A stretch of DNA of 64,000 bases from Actinomycetes bacterium (GTDB taxonomy: Bacteria; Actinomycetota; Acidimicrobiia; Acidimicrobiales; Acidimicrobiaceae). Both the position numbers and the translations under genes were made by a program. The stretch spans positions 50,557-114,556 of the forward strand of contig JAKARV010000004.1 in assembly GCA_021819205.1 (NCBI GenBank). The letters are read 5' to 3'. The notes beneath the pieces were generated by a model. That model saw only the letters and a program-made list of their open reading frames with translations, did not search any database and was not told where the DNA came from. Positions 60,060 to 62,807 of the stretch are shown here, piece by piece (within the stretch, counting starts at the first letter, position 1; every line of letters begins with the position of its first letter).

Positions 60060-61188
60060 CAAGATCTCGGGGCGCGTGGTTTAGCCGGAGGGCACGGCCG
60101 CCGGAGAGGATGGCAATGTCCTCGATCCTGGCACCGTAACGGCCTTGCACGTATATCCCCGGTTCGATCGAGAAGGCCATCCCGTCGGCCAGTCGGCTAT
60201 GCTCCCCGGGAGCCAGATACGGCTCCTCATGCTCCTCAAGCCCGATGCCGTGCCCCAGCCGATGGATAAAGCAATCGCCATATCCGGCGGCAGCGATCGG
60301 CTCGCGCGCAAGCGCATCCGCCTCGGACCCGGACATTCCCGCGCGAATGCCGCTGGCAGCCGCCTCCTGTGCGGTCTGCAAAGTCGAGTAAAGTTCAAAA
60401 AAACCGGCCGGCTCAGGATCCCCGACAGCAAAGGTGCGGGTGATGTCGGAGCAGTATCCGGGTTCACCACCCGCGGAGAACGTTCCACCAAAGTCGGTGA
60501 CCAGAATGTCTCCGGCCCCGATGACCCGGTCGGAGGCCTCGTGGTGAGGGGATGCAGAGTTGGGCCCGGAGGCGACGATAGCAAAATTAACCTTGACGTG
60601 GCCCTCCTCCAGCAGCGCCGCCGCGATCGCCGCCGAAACTTCGCGCTCCGTCCGCCCGATGACCGGGATCTCGCCATCTCGCAGCCGTGCGGCCACCCGA
60701 TCGGCAGCCTCCGCAGCCAAGGTCAGCAGGCGCACCTCGATCTCGTCCTTGATCGCCCTTACCTCCGCTGTCAACGTCTCCGCTGAGCTGAAGCGCACCG
60801 AAGGAGCGGCGGAAAACAACTGAAAAAGCCACCCCGCGCGGGTGCCCTCAGTTACCAGGACCGACCCCTCCCGGGGCAGCATTGATGCAACAAGGCGGAA
60901 TGGATCCTCGCCATCGCGCCAACCCAGAACTTCAACACCCTCGAGGGGGCGGAATCTTGGCGCCTCGAGCTGAGGAATCACCAGGCGCGCCTCGCCGTCT
61001 CCGGTGACGACTGCGGCGGTAATTCGCTCCAGCGGCATCGCCTGATACCCGATCAACCAGGGCATCTCCGCGCCAACGGTGGCGATCACGGCAGAGTGTC
61101 CCCGCTCCCTGCACAGGGCCGCGATCCGGTCGATCCGTGCGCGGTATGCAACCTCGAAGCGCCTCCGGTCGAAGGCCGCAGCCGTCAA
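60043..61188 (-). CDS. M24-family metallopeptidase (Xaa-Pro aminopeptidase-like)
   Basis: The 381-residue protein has an N-terminal creatinase-like domain (about 1-150) and a C-terminal pita-bread domain with the five metal ligands in order: Thr-Asp-Phe-Gly-Gly-Thr, Cys-Ser-Asp-Ile-Thr-Arg-Thr-Phe, Arg-Leu-Gly-His-Gly-Ile-Gly-Leu, Phe-Ser-Ile-Glu-Pro-Gly-Ile-Tyr, and Ala-Arg-Ile-Glu-Asp. It would cut N-terminal residues before Pro. The TTG start overlaps the LipB-LipA stop (TTGA), so it is in the same operon. Confidence 0.88.
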   Translation of the reverse strand: MTAAAFDRRRFEVAYRARIDRIAALCRERGHSAVIATVGAEMPWLIGYQAMPLERITAAVVTGDGEARLVIPQLEAPRFRPLEGVEVLGWRDGEDPFRLVASMLPREGSVLVTEGTRAGWLFQLFSAAPSVRFSSAETLTAEVRAIKDEIEVRLLTLAAEAADRVAARLRDGEIPVIGRTEREVSAAIAAALLEEGHVKVNFAIVASGPNSASPHHEASDRVIGAGDILVTDFGGTFSAGGEPGYCSDITRTFAVGDPEPAGFFELYSTLQTAQEAAASGIRAGMSGSEADALAREPIAAAGYGDCFIHRLGHGIGLEEHEEPYLAPGEHSRLADGMAFSIEPGIYVQGRYGARIEDIAILSGGRALRLNHAPRDLVILSR

Positions 61189-62807
61189 CTAGAGATCCTG
61201 TCCGCCGCCTCGGAGCCGCGTTTGGCATGGTAAGAGGAGCGCGCCAGCGGCGAAGACTCCACGTAGCGGAAGCCCATAGAGAGCGCCGACGCTCTGATCT
61301 CGGCAAACTCCTCCGGACGGTAGTAACGGGCAACCGGTAGGTGTCTCCTGGTTGGGCGCAGGTACTGGCCGACGGTAAGGATCTCAACCCCCGCCTCGCG
61401 CAGATCCCGCATCGCGCCTTCAAGTTCCTCGCGGCTCTCCCCCATGCCGACGATAAGACCGGACTTGACCACCAAGCCGGCAGAGGCCGCCCTCGCAAGC
61501 AGGGCCAGCGTCCTAACGTAATTCGCCGACGGCCGGATCGCCCGGTGAAGACGGAGAACGGTCTCCAGATTGTGGTTGAGCACGTCCGGCCGGGCCGCAA
61601 ATATCTGCTCCAGCGGTTCGACCATCCCTTTCAAATCCGGGATGAGCACCTCCACCTTGCACCCTTGGTTCCTCTCTTTGATCGCCCGGATCGTCTGTGC
61701 AAAGGCGCCGGCCCCGCCGTCAGGAAGGTCATCACGGGCGACGGCGGTAAGCACCGCGAAGTTCAACCCAAGACGATCCACCGCCTCCGCTACCCGCTCC
61801 GGCTCCCGCGGATCGAGAGGAAGCGGCTTGGAAGTGTCTACCAGGCAGAAAGCGCACGCCCGCGTGCAGCTCTCCCCGTTGATCATGAAGGTTGCGGTGC
61901 CGTCCTTCCAACACTCGTAGATGTTCGGGCAACCCGCCTCCTGGCAAACGGTGACCAGGTTCAACCCCTCGACCAAGCCGCCAATGCTGCGGTACTCCTC
62001 TCCCATTACCGCGGTCCGCCGTACCCACTCCGGCTTGCGAGCAGCAAAGGGAACCGCCTCTGCTGCGTTGAATCCCGCCTTGGCGAGACGTACTTCGAGC
62101 CGTGAACGCCCCGAGTCCACGCGGCGTGCGCTTTCGCCCCCCGCAGAAAGGTCGACGCCGGCCAAGTCGATACCGGAGAAGCCAAAGCTCTTCGCAAAGG
62201 CGGCAACCATTTTGGAGGCGACCTCGGCAACCGGCACCGAGACTCCCTCGAGAGCCATAGAAGTAACTGGCTTGTTTGCAATTCCGCAAGGAACAATGTG
62301 CGAGAACATGGCCATATCAGTGCTGACGTTCAAGGCGAAGCCGTGCATGGAACGACCCCGCGCCAGCTTCACCCCAATGGCCGCAATCTTGCGCTCGTTC
62401 CCACTCTCTCCGGTCCACACTCCGGGGTAACCCTCCAAGTGGAAAGCGGCTATGCCGTACTCCGCGAGCACCGAGACCACCACGCCTTCTATCCCGTGAA
62501 CGTACGTCGGCGTCGCATCCGGAACTATCGGAACATCAATAATCGGGTAACCTACCAGCTGGCCCGGGCCGTGGTATGTGATATCTCCTCCACGATCGGT
62601 AGGGATTGCGCGAGCACCAACCGATTCCGGGCTCACCAACATGTGCGCGGGATCCGCCCTTACGCCCAAAGTGTAGATAGGGGGATGCTCGAGCAGCAGA
62701 AGGTAGCTGGATTCGCCGGTGTGAAGGCGATGCTGCAGCTCAAGGGCGTCCTCGTACTCCACCCTCCCCAACCAGCGGGCAACAAGAAGCTCCCTTCGAG
62801 CGCTCAT
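61185..62807 (-). CDS. lipB-lipA: LipB-LipA fusion (octanoyltransferase and lipoyl synthase)
   Basis: One continuous frame of 540 residues holds both lipoate enzymes. Residues about 1-225 are LipB: Arg-Gly-Gly-Asp-Ile-Thr-Tyr-His-Gly-Pro-Gly-Gln (about 72-83), Ile-Gly-Val-Lys (Lys 147) and Ile-Val-Pro-Cys-Gly-Ile (Cys 174, the acyl-enzyme). Residues about 245-540 are LipA: the auxiliary cluster motif CX4CX5C (Cys 288, 293, 299), the radical SAM motif CX3CX2C (314, 318, 321), and the C-terminal Arg-Ser-Ser-Tyr. No stop separates them. ATG 62807 overlaps the E2 stop. It would move octanoate from ACP to the E2 and then insert sulphur, and E2 is the gene just upstream. Confidence 0.93.
   Translation of the reverse strand: MSARRELLVARWLGRVEYEDALELQHRLHTGESSYLLLLEHPPIYTLGVRADPAHMLVSPESVGARAIPTDRGGDITYHGPGQLVGYPIIDVPIVPDATPTYVHGIEGVVVSVLAEYGIAAFHLEGYPGVWTGESGNERKIAAIGVKLARGRSMHGFALNVSTDMAMFSHIVPCGIANKPVTSMALEGVSVPVAEVASKMVAAFAKSFGFSGIDLAGVDLSAGGESARRVDSGRSRLEVRLAKAGFNAAEAVPFAARKPEWVRRTAVMGEEYRSIGGLVEGLNLVTVCQEAGCPNIYECWKDGTATFMINGESCTRACAFCLVDTSKPLPLDPREPERVAEAVDRLGLNFAVLTAVARDDLPDGGAGAFAQTIRAIKERNQGCKVEVLIPDLKGMVEPLEQIFAARPDVLNHNLETVLRLHRAIRPSANYVRTLALLARAASAGLVVKSGLIVGMGESREELEGAMRDLREAGVEILTVGQYLRPTRRHLPVARYYRPEEFAEIRASALSMGFRYVESSPLARSSYHAKRGSEAADRISS

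Follow-up and report, generated by a model that had tools for sequence, protein, structure and literature searches.

We found that LipB (octanoyltransferase) and LipA (lipoyl synthase) are encoded as one protein in the analysed window, by which we mean the whole stretch of 64,000 nucleotides considered here, and that this LipB-LipA fusion is the usual state in the class Acidimicrobiia. The fusion probably performs both steps that build the lipoyl cofactor, on the same acceptor lipoyl domain (E2 or GcvH), as judged from its sequence. In E. coli and mycobacteria, LipB and LipA are separate proteins, and studies of how the octanoylated carrier travels between the two normally use them in separate form.

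The fusion gene and its catalytic residues

The gene and its parts were located as follows:

61185..62807, minus strand: LipB-LipA fusion gene, 540 residues, 58.3 kDa, ATG start
62172..62807, minus strand: LipB octanoyltransferase domain, residues 1-212 (NCBIfam lipB, Pfam LplA-B_cat, PDB 1w66/2qhs by sequence and fold)
62388..62390, minus strand: catalytic Lys140 of the LipB domain (from sequence, 540-residue numbering)
62286..62288, minus strand: catalytic Cys174 of the LipB domain, predicted octanoyl thioester carrier (from sequence)
62037..62156, minus strand: junction, residues 218-257 (from conservation, model, linker lengths and comparison with stand-alone LipA)
61188..62036, minus strand: LipA lipoyl synthase domain, residues 258-540 (NCBIfam lipA, PDB 5exi/5exk)
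61911..61946, minus strand: auxiliary [4Fe-4S] cluster motif C288-x4-C293-x5-C299 (CX4CX5C), by alignment
61845..61868, minus strand: radical SAM cluster motif C314-x3-C318-x2-C321 (CX3CX2C), by alignment
61230..61241, minus strand: C-terminal RSSY motif, residues 523-526, by alignment

Both parts lie in a single open frame of 540 codons, at 61185-62807 of the minus strand, with no stop between them. This agrees with an earlier sequence-only reading of the window, which had described LipB and LipA in one 540-residue frame, and the single frame with its ATG start bears that description out. An alternative GTG start at 62828 would lengthen the fusion by seven residues, to 547. The same reading considered both catalytic sets complete, and they are, but its Lys147 is Lys140 in the 540-residue numbering: two numberings had been mixed, with Lys147 counted along 547 residues and Cys174 along 540.

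Both halves scored above the cut-offs of NCBIfam, which are curated equivalog cut-offs. The lipB model (TIGR00214) gave 142.6 bits against a cut-off of 83.55 over residues 43-215, and the lipA model (TIGR00510) gave 336.9 bits against 310.25 over residues 262-537, both ranges in the 547-residue numbering. Pfam LplA-B_cat and Radical_SAM were also above the Pfam cut-offs in the fusion protein.

For the LipB half, Lys140 and Cys174 were placed by alignment with the M. tuberculosis LipB chain 1w66. The dyad of that enzyme is Lys142/Cys176 in the available part of PMC9307952, and the window protein presents the same Cys/Lys catalytic dyad (K140, C174). For the LipA half, the CX4CX5C, CX3CX2C, and RSSY motifs were all present; the accessible text of PMC12246082 covers the roles of the auxiliary-cluster cysteines and of the RSSY serine, which would ligate the auxiliary cluster.

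These residues were largely conserved among 48 aligned two-domain proteins. All six cysteines of the auxiliary and radical SAM clusters were kept in 48/48, and so were R523 and S524, while S525 was found in 47/48, with one gap. K140 was present in 47/48 (the exception is P0132) and C174 in 45/48 (the exceptions are P0126, P0129, and P0132). Judged from the protein letters alone, these three gene calls seem to have left the reading frame in part of LipB, and counts taken straight from domain listings may thus be too high for intact fusions.

The junction consists of a poorly conserved linker, followed by a predicted helix (residues 236-243) and by LipA's own N-terminal arm. The linker spans 20-128 residues, with a median of 55, in the 73 of 79 class fusions where it was measurable. 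We considered the motif R-L-x-x-A/G-G at the junction as a mark of the fusion and rejected it as not specific: 51 of 80 fused rows contain it, but so do 6 rows of stand-alone LipA.

At the structural level, a PDB sequence search with the first half retrieved the LipB chains 2qhs, 2qht, and 1w66, and the second half retrieved the lipoyl synthases of M. tuberculosis, Thermosynechococcus, and human. Foldseek on the predicted model gave target TM values of 0.89-0.93 for 5exk, 0.87 for 1w66, and 0.89 for 2qhs. AlphaFold2 predicted the window protein, with 48 aligned two-domain proteins, at a pLDDT of 90.1 and a pTM of 0.91; the model was confident over most of its length and displayed both domains packed together. 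A pTM of this size would be more than expected if the two domains were only loosely strung together. For the fusion of Thermoleophilum album (P0121), predicted with 23 sequences, the pTM was 0.54. Since the alignment depths differ, the P0121 tail is disordered, and the pTM comes without PAE, we take the domain packing as a hint only.

Spread within Acidimicrobiia

The close relatives that bear names supplied the class name; they are Ferrimicrobium (of the class Acidimicrobiia), Acidimicrobium ferrooxidans, and Acidimicrobiales bacteria. In a search of 5.8 billion proteins, 7,995 relatives were scored, and all of the best 120 of them contained both Pfam domains within 521-593 residues. Named among these 120 are Ferrimicrobium, Acidimicrobium ferrooxidans DSM 10331 (on a 2.16 Mb contig), and Acidimicrobiales bacteria.

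When looking at genomes, fusion matches were found in 56/60 nearest relatives and in 189 of the 198 class genomes surveyed, each at least 85% complete. One alignment spanned both domains in 150 of the matching class genomes. The other 39 were searched again, and 35 of them had both domains in one open frame, as called from a spanning alignment, an equal open-frame length, or a reading of the DNA. In 185 of the 189 matching class genomes, one open frame thus contains both domains, complete or truncated by a contig end, and single-contig genomes and genomes of about 1 Mb are among the carriers. An unusual status of the fusion is thus not supported: it is the usual state in the class, and UniRef already labels some members as a fusion.

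A few loci differed. In G151 and G235, the LipA half lies at a contig end. At a contig start, G182 shows a LipA half that carries a LipB tail, and a LipB-only frame stands separately in this genome. G142 encodes LipB in a frame of its own, and no LipA there passed the cut-off. Among relatives outside the 198-genome draw, the LipA halves of L108 and L109 run off contig ends, and in L120 a stop lies within 64 bases of a contig end, where either a genuine split or noise at the edge may explain it. Where no fusion match was found (nine class genomes and four relatives), lipB gave no match and lipA none above the cut-off. Internal stops were flagged in 9 of the 150 listed class matches; we read the DNA of all nine loci (L084 and L106 included), and each had both domains in one frame with the stop outside the domains.

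Fusions outside the class and their origins

Among 396 Actinomycetota genomes, 60 were listed in the class and 336 were not, and 267 of these 336 had a match. The DNA was read at 32 non-class loci from among the matches listed (6 spanning matches, 22 others whose LipA frame reaches 480 residues or more, and 4 controls with short frames); at the remaining listed loci, the LipA frames are too short for both domains. Only one of the 32 (G565) had both domains in one frame, and its protein is that of Thermoleophilum album, of the class Thermoleophilia (P0121). In its genus mate G544, lipB and lipA are two genes that do not share a frame. Of the 31 unfused Actinomycetota loci that were read, 25 have lipB as its own gene immediately upstream of lipA.

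Nine more two-domain proteins nearest the Thermoleophilum fusion had readable LipB halves (P0122-P0125, P0127, P0128, P0130, P0131, and P0133), and the LipB halves of P0134 and P0135, near the same fusion, do not read well. For other phyla and groups, none of the 33 loci so titled had both domains in one frame, and most were without any LipB match.

We built LipA and LipB trees as quick trees with SH-aLRT support only, omitting 13 duplicate or unrelated loci, 19 cut or incomplete loci, 10 near-copies, and rows whose domain match was too short. The LipA tree (135 rows, 80 fused) requires two changes of the fused label, and two are forced by starred branches; one forced change is the Thermoleophilum fusion adjoining its unfused genus mate. 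This tree groups the class fusions, with a deepest branch that is not firmly joined: three f39 rows, from genomes of about 1 Mb, are not firmly joined to the other 76. The LipB tree (115 rows, 80 fused) needs four changes, three of them forced. The extra changes appear because two LipB-only class frames nest in the class fusions and because L079, a Bacteroidota LipB with a long branch and odd composition, joins the f39 rows. The two nested LipB-only frames are L143 (in G142) and L141 (in G182).

In our reading, the class fusions go back to a single ancestral event with rare changes afterwards, and Thermoleophilum acquired its fusion independently; some doubt about the single origin within the class comes from the f39 rows and the placement of L079. 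Whether the two-domain proteins form one clade had been raised by the sequence-only reading, and the answer is largely yes for the class, with an independent fusion in Thermoleophilum album in addition.

Gene neighbourhood and the rest of the genome

The fusion is flanked by two overlapping genes:

62804..64000, minus strand: E2 acyltransferase gene, directly upstream, overlapping the fusion by ATGA and cut by the contig end
60043..61188, minus strand: M24 peptidase (Xaa-Pro dipeptidase-like) gene, directly downstream, overlapping by TTGA

The start of the fusion overlaps the E2 stop, in line with the earlier proposal that an E2 gene adjoins it, and the downstream gene begins on the fusion's own stop. 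This E2 neighbour is directly upstream in 73 of the 79 class fusions read. Six class fusions are without it: L111 has only 5 bases upstream, and the other five are marine fusions (L042-L046) with no E2 match within 5 kb upstream. An M24 peptidase match was found downstream in 51/79, up to about 1 kb away. In the window, the E2 frame leaves the contig in a proline/alanine repeat, and the lipoyl domain of this E2 therefore falls outside. The repeat is the E2 linker (63815-64000), where the contig ends, and it is the likely cause of the assembly break.

Searching the rest of the genome, we found one lipA match, which is the fusion. Five LplA/B-family frames were detected, and a LipB-family match was found only in the fusion; the four other proteins had none, two of them scanned as the matched slice only. 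As no other LipA and no other LipB-type match was found, both lipoyl steps likely depend on the fusion; with the genome 92.6% complete, a separate gene may have been missed. Four GcvH-like matches are other possible acceptors.

The window's genome also contains a second lipoate-type cluster (L138, G000:C17, 4884-9791, minus strand). Next to one another in it are a LipS1-like radical SAM protein (225.0 bits against a cut-off of 230), a LipS2-like radical SAM protein (186.2 bits against 270), a GcvH-like protein, and two LplA-like proteins. LipS1 matches were found in 10/60 genomes, its own included, all from the window's family. A LipS1/LipS2-type cluster could synthesize the lipoyl group independently. 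Elsewhere, a free-standing lipoyl domain of 77 residues, not fused to E2 (L188, G000:C45, 1495-1728, minus strand), directly follows frames that by eye resemble E1 alpha and E1 beta, and two adjoining GcvH-like frames were located at G000:C64:43903-44680.

Proposed function and alternative explanations

As described in the available part of PMC9307952, LipB moves octanoate from ACP onto its own cysteine and then to the lipoyl domain, and LipA adds two sulphurs from its own auxiliary cluster (PMC12246082, available in part). For the fusion, we infer that both activities reside in one protein. Cys174, aided by Lys140, would accept octanoate from octanoyl-ACP, bind it as a thioester, and transfer it to the acceptor lysine of the lipoyl domain. 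Once octanoylated, this domain would shift to the LipA half of the same fusion protein, where two SAM-derived radicals would insert two sulphurs from the auxiliary cluster. It is the carrier domain, not a free molecule, that would travel between the LipB and LipA sites. The join would act by proximity, raising the local octanoylated substrate at LipA and fixing the enzymes at 1:1.

A direct hand-over of octanoyl-E2 within the fusion is plausible on the predicted model. The spread of linker lengths (20-128 residues) argues against a rigid channel, and no fixed channel is required. With variable linkers, and with packing that is a hint only, we favour proximity and fixed stoichiometry as the likely benefit, and an ordered hand-over is possible.

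The best surviving alternative, to which we give a little less than an even chance, is mere tethering: both domains would work, each taking its substrate from solution, as LipB and LipA do in E. coli, where they are separate. Loss of the stop between adjacent lipB and lipA genes would have created the fusion, which would have been kept by descent or for co-expression, with no hand-over. This explanation shares both activities with the preferred one and differs from it on the benefit of the join, so the chances given to the two overlap. Since lipB adjoins lipA as a separate gene, directly upstream in 25/31 unfused Actinomycetota loci, fusing them needs only a small change, and tethering also fits the wide variation in linker length and sequence and the prediction of the Thermoleophilum fusion without fixed domain packing (pTM 0.54). 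It explains less well why one frame has been kept class-wide, even in genomes of about 1 Mb, with only two LipB-only frames seen, and it sits uneasily with the pTM of 0.91 for the window protein.

At the other end, the fusion may be a docked two-site machine, in which the lipoyl domain would be octanoylated and passed without release to sulphur insertion. The domain arrangement would be post-fusion and absent in Thermoleophilum. We consider this stronger version rather unlikely.

It is very improbable that the gene yields two proteins, through internal initiation in the linker or through proteolysis. An in-frame ATG, GTG, or TTG does occur in the linker of 70 of the 73 class fusions measured, and in 13/73 a Shine-Dalgarno-like 4-mer lies upstream of a linker start codon. 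However, high-GC DNA often yields GTG by chance, the window's linker is without a start codon preceded by such a 4-mer, and its GTG at residue 230 is not conserved (V in 8 of the 25 rows with that column).

Finally, an assembly or frameshift artefact, or a fusion limited to this one MAG, has practically no chance, despite the draft-genome contig and the out-of-frame-looking LipB halves of some metagenomic calls (P0126, P0129, and P0132): K140 and C174 are intact in the window, and recurrence of the two-domain frame in other genomes (56/60 relatives and 185/189 class genomes, with single-contig genomes and Acidimicrobium ferrooxidans DSM 10331 among them) rules it out, together with the hidden stop by sequencing error that the earlier reading had considered. 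Our preferred reading is that one protein would serve both lipoyl steps, with proximity as the probable gain.

Comparison with known systems

A class-wide natural fusion is a ready test of the coupling between both lipoylation steps, and it gives structural studies of the two active sites a construct with a fixed 1:1 ratio. It also calls for caution in surveys that count lipB and lipA separately or name the fusion lipoyl synthase alone. With two origins in one phylum where lipB and lipA often adjoin, it is a tidy case of joining consecutive enzymes.

No description of a LipB-LipA fusion was found in the open-access literature searched, as far as its available text extends. This applies to the available parts of PMC10332631 (a large 2023 survey of lipoate assembly), PMC3904984, PMC3917532, PMC9307952, and PMC12246082.

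With known LipB (1w66, 2qhs; TIGR00214), the window protein shares the fold, the Cys/Lys dyad, and a score above the cut-off. In E. coli and mycobacteria, LipB stands alone, and the solved chains have 210-237 residues, whereas here it is the N-terminal half of a fusion. With LipA (5exi/5exk, human LIAS 8ugo; TIGR00510), it shares the fold and the CX4CX5C, CX3CX2C, and RSSY motifs; LipA elsewhere is separate, whereas in the window protein LipB and a linker precede it.

A related named architecture is NF053790 (LplA_LipA_fuse, bifunctional lipoate--protein ligase/lipoyl synthase), which by name and profile likewise places an acyl-attaching enzyme ahead of LipA. Its first half is a lipoate--protein ligase by name, whereas that of the window protein is LipB. 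We rejected membership of this family, since the window protein reached 349.4 bits against a cut-off of 800 and the LipA half alone was aligned.

In UniRef, entries named 'Multifunctional fusion pr...' (P0017, P0051, and P0121) present the same two Pfam domains in one protein. The label stands on entries from Acidimicrobium ferrooxidans, an uncultured Acidimicrobiales bacterium, and Thermoleophilum album; other UniRef entries and NCBI names give just lipoyl synthase or lipoic acid synthetase. For the UniRef fusion entries, the likeness is a database label only, and P0121 is the independent fusion. The architecture is thus already in databases under an automatic-looking label, and the fusion is a class-wide variant of a known pathway.
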